A stretch of 56,483 nucleotides of DNA from an uncultured Candidatus Saccharibacteria bacterium (GTDB lineage Bacteria > Patescibacteriota > Saccharimonadia > Saccharimonadales > Saccharimonadaceae), in NCBI GenBank assembly GCA_947428935.1, contig CANENS010000001.1:93965-150447 (forward strand). Reading direction: 5' to 3'. The translations under genes and the position numbers were made by a program. The notes under the pieces were generated by a model. That model was not told the origin of the DNA, searched no databases, and worked only from the letters and a program-made list of their open reading frames with translations. This document shows positions 23,276-54,605 of this stretch, one piece after another (the stretch's first letter is position 1; each line of letters opens with the position of its first letter).

Positions 23276-23509
23276 ATGCAACGAAGGATGTTGACTACAG
23301 TCACTTCTGCGGTTCGCAGCGGGCGCATCAGTATTGATATCGGGAAATTAAGAAGCTCTGGCTTCTACGGTTTCGAATGGTCATTACGCGCTTACTCTGA
23401 GGCTCGTGCCGCATTCGGCCTCTACTTTAATGTATCTGGTGTTAACTCGTCCGACGGCAACAACCGTTGGTATGGCCACCCCCTCCGCTGCCTAGCTAGA
23501 CAGCAATAA
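23276..23509 (+). pseudogene. Promoterless C-terminal cassette A of a FISUMP/DUF1566-like domain
   Basis: 77 residues if started at the first ATG. From VRSG (about residue 14) on, it matches the C-terminal repeat of FISUMP-like surface proteins: RSG, then an LRSSGFYGFEWSLRAYS segment, LYFNVSGV, and NNRWYGHPLRC near the end. The rest of the domain and any signal peptide are missing, and no ribosome site is seen. An upstream block (TTTTCT, GGAAAATCTAGAAAA, 23220-23249) and a downstream block (TAGACAG.AATAATGTA) are shared with cassette C. I read it as a silent gene fragment, not a working gene. Confidence 0.6.
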
Positions 23510-46774: not shown

Positions 46775-47962
46775 ATGGCAGGAGAAGAAAAAGTTTTGGA
46801 AAAAATGGACGAAGCGACCACAGCGAAATCGCAAGAATCAGAATTGGAACAGAAGTTAAGTGAGTTCGGCGTGAGCCCGGAATTAACCGATACGATCATC
46901 GATCATTTGGGCGTTGAGACGGTTGAAGATTTGAGCATGCTGGAAGAAGCTGATTTGTTGGACGCGGGTATGAAAATTATCCAAGCACGGAAACTGTTAA
47001 AACAGTTCAAGGTCGAATCGGCGCCGGAGCCTGTTGCGATGTCGCAAGTGGCATCGGCAGTTAATATGTGCGGTTCACTTTTGCCGGAGATTCCGAGTGA
47101 GGAAAGCTGGCTAGCCGATTTGAAAACTGGCGGGATTCTGCGGATTGATCGCAATTCCTATATTTCGGCAATTCGGGCGGCTTTGGCTGAGCGAACCGGA
47201 ATTTTCGAAGTACCGAAAAAGCTGGTTGATGCTATGGAAGTTTTTGCTTTAGAAAATCAGCAGCCAGTGACGCCGGAGTTTTACGAGCTAAGTAAGCAGT
47301 TAACGCGGCGGAGTTATGGTGAAGTTTTTGCAGCTGTAGACGGGATTGACGGAACGTTCGTAACAGAAAAGCGCAAGAAAGAGCTCTTTTGCCGATTGAA
47401 TGAACATGTTTGGCCGGTTTTGCAGGATAGCTCGACGCAGTTCAAGACTTGGTACGAAACTTGGGTTAGCGCTTCCAGTAACCCGGCGAACTTGGCAATG
47501 GTCTTGCAGGGTTTGCGGGGAGGCACGGCGGCCTTACCGCCTGGCATGGGAGCTGCTCCAGATACAAGCATGTTGCGTGATTTGGGCGATGGGTTGCGCG
47601 AGTCGATCAACAAAGCTTTAGCCGGAGTTGGTACGAGCGTAGCGGCGGCTTTGGCTTATGACTATACGAAGATTCGTAAAGTCTTAGAAAAGCCTGATTT
47701 GCCGGCTAAAGTTGGCGCGACTAATCGCGAACAGCTTTTCAAGAAGTTGGGGCTAAGCATCGATTCAACCTTGGTGCGCACAGAAAATAATATTGTGCGT
47801 TATATCTTGGGATTGATCGAAGCTGATAATCAGCCAGCTGATCTTGAAGCGGCCTATTTTGGCGAGCTTTATATGTTAAGTACACAGATCAATTGGCGTG
47901 CGCTCGGATTAGCTACTGATGACACAAATCACGGTTTAAGTTCTTTTACATCGGATTTGTAA
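46775..47962 (+). CDS. SAM-domain-like protein of unknown function, third gene of the PurA-like operon
   Basis: 395 residues, ATG preceded by AGGAGG. Residues 25-75 (LSEFGVSPELTDTIIDHLGVETVEDLSMLEEADLLDAGMKIIQARKLLKQF) match a sterile-alpha-motif-like helical domain, a protein- or RNA-binding module. The rest (about 100-395) is helical with no recognised fold; a Gly/Pro-rich loop (GGTAALPPGMGAAP) sits near the middle. No membrane segment. It lies 14 bases after the PurA-like gene and ends the operon. Confidence 0.65.
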   Translation: MAGEEKVLEKMDEATTAKSQESELEQKLSEFGVSPELTDTIIDHLGVETVEDLSMLEEADLLDAGMKIIQARKLLKQFKVESAPEPVAMSQVASAVNMCGSLLPEIPSEESWLADLKTGGILRIDRNSYISAIRAALAERTGIFEVPKKLVDAMEVFALENQQPVTPEFYELSKQLTRRSYGEVFAAVDGIDGTFVTEKRKKELFCRLNEHVWPVLQDSSTQFKTWYETWVSASSNPANLAMVLQGLRGGTAALPPGMGAAPDTSMLRDLGDGLRESINKALAGVGTSVAAALAYDYTKIRKVLEKPDLPAKVGATNREQLFKKLGLSIDSTLVRTENNIVRYILGLIEADNQPADLEAAYFGELYMLSTQINWRALGLATDDTNHGLSSFTSDL

Positions 47963-48236: not shown

Positions 48237-48350
48237 AGTAAGATTCTAAAGTTTGACGGTAAACTTCGCGATGACTTCAGTAAGCTTTGCAAAACTCGGA
48301 GTAAACTTCTTGTTGGCTTGAGTAAACTTGATTATATGCTGAGTAAACAT
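48237..48350 (+). repeat. Array 1 of six AGTAAACTT boxes, exact 21-bp spacing
   Basis: Nine-base boxes start at 48237, 48258, 48279, 48300, 48321 and 48342: AGTAAGATT, GGTAAACTT, AGTAAGCTT, AGTAAACTT twice and AGTAAACAT. The 12 bases between them differ. Spacing is exactly 21 bp each time, two helical turns. Confidence 0.85.
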
Positions 48351-48405
48351 ATTTTCTAGTAATTTTTGCTGGTTTTTCCAGGGGTAAATTACAGAATCGT
48401 ATTTT

Positions 48406-48498
48406 AGTAAGATTTTCTAATACATGAGTATACTTCTTTAATACAAAAGTATACTTTATTAAAGTCGGAGTAAACATTTTGATTACGAAAGTATGCTT
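48406..48498 (+). repeat. Array 2 of five AGTAWACTT boxes, exact 21-bp spacing
   Basis: Boxes start at 48406, 48427, 48448, 48469 and 48490: AGTAAGATT, AGTATACTT twice, AGTAAACAT, AGTATGCTT. Between the arrays (48351-48405) weaker box-like sequences occur out of phase at 48358 and 48382. Confidence 0.85.
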
Positions 48499-48557: not shown

Positions 48558-49934
48558 CTAGCTTTCTAATTTGGGTATGAAAATATTGCGGGTAAAAAGT
48601 TTGGTGGCCAGAATGCGATAGCTAGTTTCGTAAAATGCACTGGCGCCATTAATGGTGGGATATTTTTTGTATTCGGGATTAGAATCGGGATAAAAGGCGG
48701 GGTAGCCTTTGTGCATGAGGCGATATTCGAGTAGGTCTTGTTCGAGGCGCTCGGTCGTGAAGCTGCGGACGTCGGGGTCTTTTTCGTGGAAATAATGCGG
48801 TAGTAGTTCCCGTTGCAGATTTTCGACATTTTTGGGGCTGCCAATCCAAAAAGTGTTGAGTAGGGTAGCAAAGCGCGGCAATTGTTTAGTGATTTGACTA
48901 AAAGGTATGGTGTGAATTTGGTCGTCAGTTAGTTTTTCTGATATTGCATTATTTGTAAAAAGAGCCGATTGTGCAATTTTGTATGTTGGTTTAGTCGGCG
49001 CCCAAAGGTCGATATCGGAGTCGGGCTGACCATAGCCTTTGACGCGTGAGCCGCCTAAGCAAATTACGCCGAAAGTGGCTTTAAGGTCAAGCTGGGCGGC
49101 GAGATTTTGCGTGTAAGCAATTTCGGATTGTAAAGTATTTTCGCGCGCAGAAAAGGGCTGCGCAAGGTCGCGAAGTGGTTGATTGGGGCGCGTGATTCCC
49201 TGCGTCTTTTTAGCTAGCCAGTTGGCGCGAGCTTCGGAAATGTACTTGGGCGGAGGCGGGGTTGGTTGTGGTGGCAACGCGGCTGCGAGCTGTTTTAGCG
49301 TATTCCTGTCTTCCTCATCCAATAAGTGCCAATCTTCGAGTAGTGCTTGAGTGTCGAGTAAACTATGAGTTAGAATTTCGTCGTCGACTTGTTTGACAAA
49401 ATCGATCACCTCACTGCTCTCGACCAAGCCTTGCTTTACGAGCCAAGGTGTGAGGTGCGCGGCTTTCACTACGCGTTCGGGATCGGAAGATCGTGCATCA
49501 GGTTCGAGTACGTCGCCATCGTTGAAATTAGCGCGCACGTCCTGGCAAAATAGTAAATCAGACCAAACTTCGAGATAATTTTCGCGGAAATTATCGGCGG
49601 CGATCGAAGTTTCGCCGGGGCTTGGGAAAGTCTCAAAAGGCAGAAAGAGTGCCAGTCGTTTTAGCTCGGGATTTTGTAATAATTCGCTAGTCGCGTTGTA
49701 GTATTTCGTTTTGGCTTCAGTGGATAAATCACCTTCTGCAAGCTGATCGAGCGCTTGCGTAATCGCGTTTGCGTCGGTGCGATGTTTTTCAATTTGCGGA
49801 ATTAATGCGGCGGCATCTTCAGGCCAGAGGCGTTCGACTTTCGCAGGATTTTGGAGAATTTCGTGGATTGGCGGCGCAACTTGTAAATCTGGATTACGTT
49901 CGCTTTCCGGTTTTTCATGTGCTCTTGGCTCCAT
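48558..49934 (-). CDS. Nucleotidyltransferase-fold protein with a helical N-terminal region
   Basis: 458 residues. The C-terminal half (from about residue 290) has the minimal nucleotidyltransferase signature GGSRVKGYGQPDSDIDLW, that is GGS followed by the Asp-x-Asp metal pair (about 300-317). The N-terminal 240 residues are acidic and helical, with a Pro-rich linker (LPPQPTPPPPKY). It may transfer a nucleotide to a protein, RNA or small molecule, but the target is unknown. TAAAAT lies exactly 6 bases before the ATG, so it is leaderless. Next to it begin tRNA-Gln and the mobile element. Confidence 0.7.
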   Translation of the reverse strand: MEPRAHEKPESERNPDLQVAPPIHEILQNPAKVERLWPEDAAALIPQIEKHRTDANAITQALDQLAEGDLSTEAKTKYYNATSELLQNPELKRLALFLPFETFPSPGETSIAADNFRENYLEVWSDLLFCQDVRANFNDGDVLEPDARSSDPERVVKAAHLTPWLVKQGLVESSEVIDFVKQVDDEILTHSLLDTQALLEDWHLLDEEDRNTLKQLAAALPPQPTPPPPKYISEARANWLAKKTQGITRPNQPLRDLAQPFSARENTLQSEIAYTQNLAAQLDLKATFGVICLGGSRVKGYGQPDSDIDLWAPTKPTYKIAQSALFTNNAISEKLTDDQIHTIPFSQITKQLPRFATLLNTFWIGSPKNVENLQRELLPHYFHEKDPDVRSFTTERLEQDLLEYRLMHKGYPAFYPDSNPEYKKYPTINGASAFYETSYRILATKLFTRNIFIPKLES

Positions 49935-50005: not shown

Positions 50006-51652
50006 TCAGGATTTTGGAGAGATTTCTGAACGGATTTTGGCCCGTACTGGGGATTCGCCAAGTGGTAAGGCACCGGGTTCTGGTCCCGGCATTCGGGGGT
50101 TCGAATCCCTCATCCCCAGCCATAAGGAACGCTTTTCGCCAGAAAAAAGGTCAGAAAAGAGTTGCTTAAGGTGTAAATCCAGAGAAAATCCGTTAAATCG
50201 TAGGTTCGAAAGTAGTAGACCTACGATTTTTCGTTTCGTGTTCGTGTTGCCGCGGATAAACCGCTCCTTAATCCCATCAAGGACATCTAACAGATAGCCG
50301 ATGGTGATATAAAGGCTTTCGTCAGCTCTTTCTAACTTTCGCTCCTGCTCATCAATATCCTCTAATTCCTTACGATAGCGAGCATCATTTTCGTTATAAA
50401 TGTCCTGAGTAATACTGCCGTCAGCTAGTAGGTCATAGGCGTTCCGTTGTCGCCTTTTAATGATCATTTTCTGCTCTTCTAGCTCATTTCGTTGTTCTTC
50501 GTAGTGTTTAACCTTCATATCGCGTTTTTCGCTCAAATCTCTCCTCAAACCGCTTAATTGTTCGTTTGTGAGCGTAAAATCGTCGAGAAGGTTGTTTATG
50601 GTCTCATCAATAAAACTTTCGTCAATATTTTGCACGTGCTGATGGATCTTGCGCCCATTCGTGCAATGATAATACTTGTAGTGGTGGACATTACCATTCT
50701 TCTGACGTTTGATTTTGAAATCTGGCACTACATTACAGCCACACTCGGCACAGATGACATAACCCCGATACGGTGAAAGCATACTGTCTTTTGAACGTTT
50801 GTGTGTGCTACTGTTGCCGTCCAAAATTTCCGCACACTCTTCGAATGTTTTTTCATCAACTAGCGTTGGATAGATGTGCTGATAATATTTATTATTCTTT
50901 TTATCGTAGATTTTGCCGATGTAGAACGTTTGACGAAGGATTTCGTTGATCTGTTTCTTGACGAAACTTTTTCCAATTCCGCCGTAGCGCATGTTCATCT
51001 CTGCTGCCAAAGTCTCACAAGAATAAGTATCCGTAGCATATTCCTCAAAAATTTCTTTGACAACGCTAGCCTCTGGCTCTTTTATAACTACCGTTTTATG
51101 TCCCGCAGAGCCCGTATTTTTATACCCAAACGGAGCATTCCACGGCAGTTCGCCACGTTCAAGTTTGGTCTGTTTGGTCGTATTACCATATTCGCGTACA
51201 CCTTCAAGATAATTGCGAGCCACCATTACCTTTACATCCCATTGCAAGAGATCATTGCTGGAACTATTAGCGTCCAATACAAGGTTATCTACCGTAAAAT
51301 GTATGCGTTTGCTATACTTCAATCGTAGATCGTCGATTGCTACGGCATCGTGAAAATTGCGTGTAATACGATCTACACGCAAAGAAATAATATCAGTAAC
51401 CTCTGGATGCGACTGGGCATATTCTACCATTTTATTGAACTCTACCCGTGATTTGTATTGACCGCCAGTCTCACCAATAGCGAAAGTTTTTACAACTTTA
51501 AGATTGTGCTTTTCTGCATATTCTACCGCCGCTGGAACTTGAATTTCTTTTAATGATAGACCTTCTTTTTCTTGCCTAGCTGTCGATACACGTGCGAAAA
51601 TAATTGCCTTGCGCTCAACCTGCGTTTCCAAAACGTCCTTTGGTCGCCTCAT
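50006..51652 (-). CDS. Large serine recombinase (integrase), C-terminus reading antisense through tRNA-Gln
   Basis: 548 residues. N-terminal resolvase domain with catalytic Ser23 in FARVSTARQ and LRVDRITRN; recombinase domain with LPWNAPFGYKN and NEILRQTFYIGKI; zinc ribbon CAECGCNVV...YYHC; coiled coil (about 375-470). It should integrate and excise the element. The final 40 residues (GMRDSNPRMPGPEPGALPLGESP) are the antisense translation of tRNA-Gln and so come from the chromosome. The natural protein in the excised circle must end differently. GAGGAAA precedes the ATG, which overlaps the HTH gene stop. Confidence 0.92.
   Translation of the reverse strand: MRRPKDVLETQVERKAIIFARVSTARQEKEGLSLKEIQVPAAVEYAEKHNLKVVKTFAIGETGGQYKSRVEFNKMVEYAQSHPEVTDIISLRVDRITRNFHDAVAIDDLRLKYSKRIHFTVDNLVLDANSSSNDLLQWDVKVMVARNYLEGVREYGNTTKQTKLERGELPWNAPFGYKNTGSAGHKTVVIKEPEASVVKEIFEEYATDTYSCETLAAEMNMRYGGIGKSFVKKQINEILRQTFYIGKIYDKKNNKYYQHIYPTLVDEKTFEECAEILDGNSSTHKRSKDSMLSPYRGYVICAECGCNVVPDFKIKRQKNGNVHHYKYYHCTNGRKIHQHVQNIDESFIDETINNLLDDFTLTNEQLSGLRRDLSEKRDMKVKHYEEQRNELEEQKMIIKRRQRNAYDLLADGSITQDIYNENDARYRKELEDIDEQERKLERADESLYITIGYLLDVLDGIKERFIRGNTNTKRKIVGLLLSNLRFNGFSLDLHLKQLFSDLFSGEKRSLWLGMRDSNPRMPGPEPGALPLGESPVRAKIRSEISPKS
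50048..50122 (+). tRNA. tRNA-Gln (anticodon CUG), integration site of the mobile element
   Basis: TGGGGAT pairs with ATCCCCA, followed by G and CCA. Anticodon stem CCGGG/CCCGG holds loop TTCTGGT, anticodon CTG. T-arm GGGGGTTCGAATCCCTC. The recombinase gene 50006-51652 runs through it on the opposite strand, so the tRNA 3' end is the attachment site. Confidence 0.93.
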
Positions 51653-51822
51653 ATCTTGTTTTCCTCGATAAATTTGGCGACCTCAGACTTTTTGAAAAGT
51701 AATGCCTTGCCTACTTTATAGCCTGTGATTTTCTTCTGATTAACCCAACGATATAATGTTACTCTAGTAATCTTGAACATTTCACATAGATCATCAGATG
51801 TATAAAATTCAACATCTTCCAT
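51649..51822 (-). CDS. Small helix-turn-helix protein (excisionase/AlpA-like)
   Basis: 57 residues from the ATG at 51822 (MEDVEFYTSDDLCEMFKITRVTLYRWVNQKKI). The HTH and the following GYKVGKALLFKKSEVAKFIEEN wing are typical of MerR-like excisionases (HTH_17). It overlaps the recombinase start by four bases (ATGA), so the two are made together, and it probably sets the direction of recombination. Promoter TTGACT-17-TATAAT lies 7 bases before the ATG. Confidence 0.88.
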   Translation of the reverse strand: MEDVEFYTSDDLCEMFKITRVTLYRWVNQKKITGYKVGKALLFKKSEVAKFIEENKI

Positions 51823-51829
51823 ATATATC

Positions 51830-51858
51830 ATTATATATCAATGGCTATCATAAGTCAA
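51830..51858 (-). promoter_or_regulatory. Promoter of the HTH-recombinase pair
   Basis: Minus strand: TTGACT (51853-51858), 17 bp, TATAAT (51830-51835), then 7 bases to the ATG. Leaderless. Confidence 0.75.
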
Positions 51859-51922
51859 GACACAAACCATTCTAACCCCTTGGGTAAATCTCCGAAGAAG
51901 TAAAGATTTACGCATAAGCACT

Positions 51923-53461
51923 TTATTCAAAATATGGCGCAAAATATGATCGTATAACAGGTTCTACACTTCTGCCGTTCAGCCGAATAATTTCAAAAAT
52001 AATGCCAATGATTCTTCGTTTTTCATCAATTCTAGCGACATTAAAAAGATCTGCAATGTGATTCATTATTTCGCGTAAGTATCGAGGCGTCGTATAGAAA
52101 GTTTCGTCAATACATTCCAAACGCTCCTCTTCCTCGTTGATTTTCAACAGATCATCTTGGTATCGTCGATTACCTTCGTCGTATTCCTCTTTGCTAATAA
52201 TCTGGTCTGCCATCATATCGTAAGTATTTCGTTGGCGTTGTTTAATTAGCCCTCGTTGTTTTGCCAATTTAGCACGCTCATTCTTAAAAAAGTTGACTTG
52301 ACAAGCATGTTTCTCTGCGATTTTATCGCTAAGAGGCTGGAGGTGGTAGTTACGTAAAATTAGCTTTGAAAGACACTCTCTAACTTCGTTACTAATCTCC
52401 TCTTCGGTAATGTTGCATTGTGTTTGGTGTTTATTCTTCGCATTTGAACAATGGTAATAGTTGTAGTGATGGCGATTCCCGTTTTTCTGAATTTTGTCCT
52501 TAAAATCTGGTATTACATCACACCCACATTCATCACATTTTATAAAACCGCGATAAACTGCTGGTATACTACCATACGAACGATGGTGCGTTTCTCCGTG
52601 TTCTCTTAAAACCTCACCACATGCCAAAAAGGTTTCCGATGTAACTAAAGTGGGATGGATGTGCGGATAAAACACCTCCATTCCATTGTCTTCATCGCGT
52701 ATTTGCCCCATATAGAATGGCTCATTAAGAATAGTGTTAACCTTTCCGCAATCAAACTTTTCACCAATGCCACCGTAGCGTCTTTGCATTTCCACCGCTA
52801 GTGACCGACAAGAATATATCCCAGTAGCAAATTCCGCAAATATTTCCTGAACAATACTAGCTCTTGGCTCGACTGGAATAACGCGTTCTCTAGGAGAAAC
52901 ATGTTTTTGATTTTTATATCCATAAGGAGCTTTCCACGGTAATTCTCCGTTTTGTAGTTTAGTATTTTTTGAGTTTATTCCATCTTCTTTAACACCTTCT
53001 AAATAATGTCGAGCAAATAGAACCTTCGCATCCCATTGGAAGAGATCGTTACGATTGCTATTTTCGCATAAAATAAAGTTATCATCAACAAAATGAATAC
53101 GTTTATGATATTTGGAGCGCATATCCTCGACTACCACAGAATCGTAATAGTTTCGAGTAATTCTATCTACCCGGAACGCAATTATGTCAGTAACAAAATC
53201 GCTTTCTTTAACATATTCAATCATTTCATCAAACTTTTTGCGCTTTTTATATCTTCCACCAGTTTCACTAACTTTATATTCTCTTACGATCTCGAGATTG
53301 TGCTCCTTTGCATATTCTCGCATGCGCGGAAGTTGAATTTCGTTTAATGACAATCCCTCTCTTCCTTGTCGAGAGGTTGACACTCGTGCAAATATAACAG
53401 CTTTTCTCGGTTTATTTTCTTCCTGCTTCATGTTGTTATTCAGCTTTTGATAATTACTCAT
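51923..53461 (-). CDS. Second large serine recombinase, tandem paralogue
   Basis: 512 residues. Same architecture as the first: Ser28 in FARVSTSRQ, FRVDRITRNYYDS, LPWKAPYGYKN, zinc ribbon CDECGCDVIPDF...YYHC and coiled coil; it ends cleanly at PYFE. Long identical stretches show the two genes came from a duplication. Both keep the catalytic serine, Arg and zinc ligands, so both may be active. One may work on another site, or the two may act as a pair. AAAAAGGA precedes the ATG. It lies 16 bases after the replication gene. Confidence 0.9.
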   Translation of the reverse strand: MSNYQKLNNNMKQEENKPRKAVIFARVSTSRQGREGLSLNEIQLPRMREYAKEHNLEIVREYKVSETGGRYKKRKKFDEMIEYVKESDFVTDIIAFRVDRITRNYYDSVVVEDMRSKYHKRIHFVDDNFILCENSNRNDLFQWDAKVLFARHYLEGVKEDGINSKNTKLQNGELPWKAPYGYKNQKHVSPRERVIPVEPRASIVQEIFAEFATGIYSCRSLAVEMQRRYGGIGEKFDCGKVNTILNEPFYMGQIRDEDNGMEVFYPHIHPTLVTSETFLACGEVLREHGETHHRSYGSIPAVYRGFIKCDECGCDVIPDFKDKIQKNGNRHHYNYYHCSNAKNKHQTQCNITEEEISNEVRECLSKLILRNYHLQPLSDKIAEKHACQVNFFKNERAKLAKQRGLIKQRQRNTYDMMADQIISKEEYDEGNRRYQDDLLKINEEEERLECIDETFYTTPRYLREIMNHIADLFNVARIDEKRRIIGIIFEIIRLNGRSVEPVIRSYFAPYFE

Positions 53462-53477
53462 CGTTGGTCCTTTTTAG

Positions 53478-54605
53478 CTACTGTTTTATGTAATCTGCTA
53501 ATCTTACTAGACGAAACCCTTCGAGTTCTCGCATGATACGATCGGCGCTACTTTGCCTTTGGACACTAATATGCGCATTAGCAATGGTTTGTTTTAATCT
53601 AAACCATTGCCCAGATGTTGCGCCAATCATTTTTCTAATATCTAAAAGCCCGTCCTCGCCAAGCAGAGCCTTCACACCTATAATAATGAGGATGTTTTTT
53701 GGACTTAGACCTGGATTGTTTTGCTTTAATTCTGTCGCTAACTTTTCTACGTTAGACGTCGTGGCAAGTAATTTATTTTGTGCTTCCAGAAACGGAGAAA
53801 AAGCCCCCAATAATATAGTTCTAGCCGCCTCTAATGAAAATAGATCACAAAAACGTCCGTCGCCAAACTCTAAACCGTATTTATTAAAAGTGTTTCGTAT
53901 AATTGGATGTTCTAATAGTCGGTGTTCAATCCTCACTACCTCCAACGGCGATTTAATTTGATCTAAAATGCAAAACTGACACTGATTATCCTTCTCGAAA
54001 CGACCTTTTTTCCATTGCGTTGTTTTAAGTTCTTGTATCTTGTCGTAAACTATTAGTCCCGAAGTTGACGTTTGAAAATACAAACCTTCTCCACCGTTCA
54101 CATAATCTCGTTTATCATGTTGTTTGCGAACCGTAACATCACATTTTGCCAAATCTCTAATAATTTGAGACGCTGTCATATAATCCATAAATGGAATATT
54201 CTTCCCGTAGTGTATAGTTGACACGGTAGCGGATGCGAGTTTTTCTGGAAGAATGGTTATCCCCATTATCTCTAAACGCTCAGAAAGCATTTCGCAAACC
54301 GTGGTCAAACCATTATCCGATAGCTCATCAAAATTATTATTAAACAAGATCTTTGGGGCTGAAAATTCAACTCGCGCAAATATGGCGCAGCCCCCACTCC
54401 TTCTTGCCTTTATCACAGAAAATCTCGGAAAGTATAGTCCTAATTGCTTCAGCTCCGTTGGTAAGATATAATTCGTCTTCACGTATCGTCCGCTTTTTGC
54501 GTTTTTATTTAAGATCGGGCGCACTGATTGCGAAAAATTTGGATATACCGACGGAGCAATAGTGAAATCATCCCTACTAATATTGAGGATAACCGTGTCT
54601 ACCAT
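53478..54605 (-). CDS. Filamentous-phage/plasmid-type replication initiator (gpII/X-like)
   Basis: 375 residues. The order DTVILNISRDDFTI, LPRFSVIK, CAIFARVEFSAPKILFNNNFDELSDNGL, LERLEIMGI and LIVYDKIQELK, VVRIEHRLLEHPIIRNTF is that of gene II/X-type rolling-circle initiators found in inoviruses and small plasmids. It would nick the element's origin using a tyrosine and start single-strand replication. The metal His pair is not obvious, so the assignment is moderate. It starts inside the SpoVG gene (29-base overlap). Confidence 0.7.
   Translation of the reverse strand: MVDTVILNISRDDFTIAPSVYPNFSQSVRPILNKNAKSGRYVKTNYILPTELKQLGLYFPRFSVIKARRSGGCAIFARVEFSAPKILFNNNFDELSDNGLTTVCEMLSERLEIMGITILPEKLASATVSTIHYGKNIPFMDYMTASQIIRDLAKCDVTVRKQHDKRDYVNGGEGLYFQTSTSGLIVYDKIQELKTTQWKKGRFEKDNQCQFCILDQIKSPLEVVRIEHRLLEHPIIRNTFNKYGLEFGDGRFCDLFSLEAARTILLGAFSPFLEAQNKLLATTSNVEKLATELKQNNPGLSPKNILIIIGVKALLGEDGLLDIRKMIGATSGQWFRLKQTIANAHISVQRQSSADRIMRELEGFRLVRLADYIKQ

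Follow-up and report, generated by a model that had tools for sequence, protein, structure and literature searches.

Iterons and parC/sopC-like centromere arrays consist of direct repeats whose spacing is a multiple of the DNA helical turn. Other repeats are dispersed over the chromosome, such as the Rickettsia palindromic elements (RPEs), which occur in a small-genome, host-dependent bacterium both in frame within housekeeping genes and in intergenic DNA (PMC10969869). The window analysed here is the whole stretch of 56,483 nucleotides, C1:93965-150447 of an uncultured Candidatus Saccharibacteria genome (G000; 1.10 Mb in 27 contigs, nearly all of which was read). For one protein encoded in the window, the sole relative with a name came from a Candidatus Saccharibacteria genome. 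It contains an element whose organization, two arrays flanking a core, recalls R1 parC, and whose two neighbouring genes are not thought to be part of it:

46775..47962, + strand: left neighbour gene, SAM-like domain, ending 275 bp before the array
48237..48350, + strand: array 1, six 9-bp AGTAWACTT-type boxes at 21-bp steps (starts 48237, 48258, 48279, 48300, 48321, 48342)
48351..48405, + strand: conserved core, the 55 bp between the arrays (ATTTTCTAG..TTTTTCCAGGGGTAAATTAC..TATTTT)
48406..48498, + strand: array 2, a further five 9-bp boxes in steps of 21 bp (starts 48406, 48427, 48448, 48469, 48490)
48558..49934, - strand: right neighbour gene, convergent, with a weak match to nucleotidyltransferases, ending 60 bp after the array

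The eleven boxes at exact 21-bp steps, in groups of six and five, described in an earlier note on this locus were reproduced at the same coordinates; the core was absent from that note. From array 1 to array 2 the start-to-start offset is 64 bp (3x21+1). The box is near-palindromic, and a single array can be read as chains on either strand. Tandem Repeats Finder detects just about two units of the array because the spacers differ. The contrast between a constant box and a variable spacer was borne out over 91 distinct 21-bp units, among which positions 1-9 alone were strongly conserved and spacer positions 14, 15 and 18 carried a weak A-A..C signal.

The element inserts in frame in a protein gene as RPEs do, with one clear case in the LigA of a relative and weaker ones in CysS and PheT. 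RPEs are palindromes of about 150 bp, whereas the present element is a box array lacking a long inverted repeat (the only inverted pair found in it is one of 14 bp inside array 2), and all copies found in G000 itself were intergenic, none being genic. Likewise, it resembles MITEs and REP/ERIC/BOX repeats in being short, non-coding, intergenic, present in many copies and variably present between related species, but neither terminal inverted repeats nor target duplications were found and it is the boxes, not whole copies, that are conserved. The element thus behaves like RPEs and MITEs yet is not classed with either, since their defining inverted repeats are missing. Iterons and centromere arrays differ from it in another way: it has many chromosomal copies, no adjoining rep or par gene and a species-specific box, and it is absent from relatives. 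Of the traits of structured RNAs, neither covarying pairs nor an Rfam match was found for the element.

Dispersed copies and empty sites in a near relative

A search of G000 revealed the array-core-array organization at about 17 places, some of them degenerate, on contigs C1 (three), C2, C4, C5 (two), C6 (two), C7, C8, C9 (two, partial), C10, C14, C22 and C24. Chains of at least three boxes at a 21-bp step numbered 42, several being one array counted again from the opposite strand; block-shuffled controls gave 0.2 such chains per genome. The spacing of box pairs across the genome was almost exclusively 21, 42 or 63-65 bp. No copy overlaps a convincing gene, in a genome of which about 20% lies outside long ORFs; opposite the C14 copy, the other strand has an overlapping ORF of 153 aa, which is without support and was judged spurious. 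Among the 15 copies with both neighbours known, seven lie between convergent genes, seven between tandem and one between divergent genes, for a length-based expectation of 21%, 57% and 22%, respectively, so that convergent pairs are modestly in excess (P=0.02). No neighbouring gene or neighbour function is common to the copies, and arrays occur in both orientations inside 120 kb of one contig. Another repeat of about 113 bp (97% identical) adjoins two array copies (C14:2200-2470 and C2:81092-81204).

These data bear on the earlier comparison of the locus with iterons, centromere-like sites or cooperative operators. The phasing of the boxes on one helix face and their conservation at the DNA level hold, but a function as a single iteron, origin or centromere-like locus does not: copies are dispersed, their neighbours are unrelated and include no common initiator gene as expected for a plasmid iteron or replication origin, no 21-bp array was found in the near relative, and no GC-skew switch, which would have marked an origin or terminus, was found at the array. 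Intrinsic curvature was also rejected, A-tract phasing being only mildly above background.

The closest genome found, as judged by ClpP (94%), was G067. No 21-bp array was recovered from its 18 largest contigs (846 kb) with a box-independent detector, which in G000 recovers just the better-kept arrays. Gene order between the two genomes is kept around several copies, and two sites are short in G067: about 75 bp against 914 bp between ruvB and rubrerythrin (the C14 copy and other DNA), and about 70 bp against about 500 bp at uppS (the C6 copy together with a surface-protein cassette), G000 holding at both sites further inserted DNA besides the array copy. From the sequences compared, gain in G000 would be a simpler reading than loss in G067.

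Boxes were 79% identical among seven diverged copies, and the 55-bp cores were 72% identical pairwise in an ungapped comparison of four diverged copies. Spacers were no more alike at the same index than at different indices, either in array 1 (37% against 36%) or in array 2 (46% against 45%); boxes and core have therefore been held while spacers drifted. As spacers are unlike between copies, most copies are either old or made by a route that does not copy spacers. Three copies, on C4, C7 and C8, have about 250-300 bp in common at 97-99% identity within unrelated flanks, and represent recent copying. Their ends differ, and neither TIR nor TSD was seen in them, so that these three copies give no sign of classical transposition.

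Throughout G000 there are also some 96 silent surface-protein cassettes, which correspond to a Fib_succ_major-like (FISUMP-like) C-terminal domain. The set comprises 98 3'-ends and 96 paired free-standing cassettes, and is represented in the window at 23313-23495. Cassettes are mostly 180-189 bp, with lengths in multiples of three, and 95 of the 96 are open (RSG...FPLRCLARQ*); their borders are sharp (TTCGCAGCGGG...CTGCCTAGCTAG). The end of an expressed copy, a 560-aa Fib_succ_major-like gene (C2:77918-79600), is 100% identical to the silent cassette C4:11268-11447, the identity stopping near the cassette borders. The arrangement looks like a silent-cassette system of antigenic variation, and is probably not a DGR because no RVT_1 was found. 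An obligatory link between arrays and cassettes was rejected, G067 having a single cassette of the exact G000 type and, with a looser search, about 54 of a variant type, but no arrays.

Arrays in the genus and inside genes

Arrays with a 21-bp step recur in relatives of the genus, with a box that differs by species (AGTATGATT/AGTATGTTT, ACTATGTTT, ACTATGWTT and ATTATGTTT); the unit of 21 bp seen in G155, AGTATGTTT-ATA-AAACATACT, forms a perfect 9-3-9 palindrome. A 3-box pattern matched in 40 of 174 same-genus genomes, several of these matches being coding or near chance level, with a reversed-pattern control near zero in most. Such retention, with none in G067, is not that of a parS- or parC-like site, expected to be kept across related species. 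When 393 genomes of the order were searched with a stricter 4-box pattern, 7 matched, each belonging to this genus, and arrays were found in none of about 300 genomes of other genera. As far as these searches extend, the element appears confined to one genus of Saccharibacteria, which are minute parasitic bacteria. Carriage by viruses was rejected, since the sole 3-box match among viral sequences was coding and none of 48 contigs with a 2-box pattern reached three boxes in a scan.

The core motif adjoins arrays of several species and occurs in both orientations relative to the boxes. The motif TTTNNCAGRGGTRAAA, taken from the core, is enriched in the genus, some matches being coding; it was rejected as a stand-alone marker, because among 30 inspected matches many lay in long ORFs and few had boxes nearby. 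In G012, G079 and G102 (L275, L163), the start codon of clpP is directly preceded by a TTTTAACAGRGG core together with one or two boxes, which were not seen at that place in the other relatives read on that strand. Five relatives (L162, L165, L167, L180, L184) share another dispersed element, which includes TTTAACAGGGGTRAAA within ...TTAGGGTATTAACAGACAT...CTACTAAAAAATCGGC.

Some arrays in relatives lie within genes. In G015, the LigA sequence EYDFSSP-EYDGESS-EYDSGLA-EYDFSEV corresponds to a 22-residue in-frame insert that is absent from the LigA of G000 and G067 and from DNA ligases of solved structures. CysS (KHTPDSK-NHTPALE-NHT) and PheT of the same genome, and a glycosyltransferase, are 4-8 residues longer at the arrays, an extra length that falls in variable regions, which leaves LigA as the only clear insert. 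Sortase-like genes of three species (L152, L157, L158) contain three AGTATGATT-type boxes spaced by 21 bp (SMI heptads) with no obvious extra length, either by chance or because an array overwrote existing sequence. The frame in which the box is read varies with gene and genome (EYD, SMI, NHT, YS); different genes reading it in different frames, what recurs is the DNA box and not a peptide.

Proposed mechanism and competing explanations

We consider it rather likely that the element in the window is a copy of a dispersed repeat, neither coding nor autonomous, that carries phased putative protein sites and spreads in trans. The boxes would be sites for a sequence-specific protein, bound cooperatively along one helix face, and the box specificity of this putative protein would differ by species. 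Spread would depend on an enzyme supplied in trans, this route being the weakest step of the model. Copies would settle mostly in gene-free DNA and at times in frame inside the genes of relatives, which the 21-bp period, equal to seven codons, would favour. More tentatively, the element may be selfish DNA defined by phased sites for one co-evolving protein, whose binding specificity in each species would set the box. Boxes and core, though not spacers, would then be maintained either by selection or by the way the element spreads, and the seven-codon period would let arrays enter essential genes.

Helical phasing, conserved boxes and core, and some 17 dispersed copies lying mostly downstream of genes are also what could be expected of chromosome-organizing sites, at which a partition, condensin-loading or nucleoid protein is loaded. 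This explanation is unlikely: G067 manages without a 21-bp array and most relatives have few, the two array orientations occur together within 120 kb, and some placements in relatives are coding.

Even less probable is a role as transcription insulator, terminator or operator, often between convergent genes. The convergent excess in G000 and the box and core preceding clpP in three relatives argue for it. Against it, no terminator-like hairpin was found, promoter-like sites were fewer than in shuffles, the alignment showed no covarying RNA structure and neighbours lack a common function. The fold of the single copy was slightly better than those of shuffled sequences (z about -2). An RNA function was rejected: no Rfam match exceeded the threshold, and the alignment fold reached just -2.4 kcal/mol and included a single pair that had changes on both sides.

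It is very improbable that the arrays serve a resident plasmid or an integrated element as iterons, which the placing of direct repeats two turns apart and the nearness (1.5 kb) of an integrated element that encodes two serine recombinases would suggest; the number of copies, their unrelated neighbours, the want of a common replication gene and a 21-bp unit that is not conserved as a whole all speak against it. Next to a tRNA gene (50048-50119), the region concerned (window positions 50006-54605) holds two large serine recombinase genes, an HTH_17 gene and a 375-aa ORF without assignment. This region is probably an integrated mobile element; GC skew changes sign within it.

The least credible explanation, already disfavoured, is a heptad-repeat protein, decayed or live (SKLxxxx / KFTxxxx), for although 21 is a multiple of three, frames stay open for 65-82 codons and two arrays with core in G080 overlie the beginnings of a pair of paralogous surface-protein ORFs, the box is kept as nucleotides (its Ser codon is AGT or AGC, never TCN), differs between genes in its reading frame (at least three frames), and is separated by spacers with stops in G000, in line with the earlier view that such heptads are not conserved as protein.

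The element was matched to no family checked here, and a brief, thin literature search on Saccharibacteria repeats returned no description of it. If the proposed model is true, these would be selfish repeats tied to a specific DNA-binding protein, and the genus would offer a natural test of how the specificities of protein and site change together between species. Saccharibacteria genomes are very small, yet this lineage carries a seemingly spreading, helix-phased repeat able to lengthen essential enzymes in frame.
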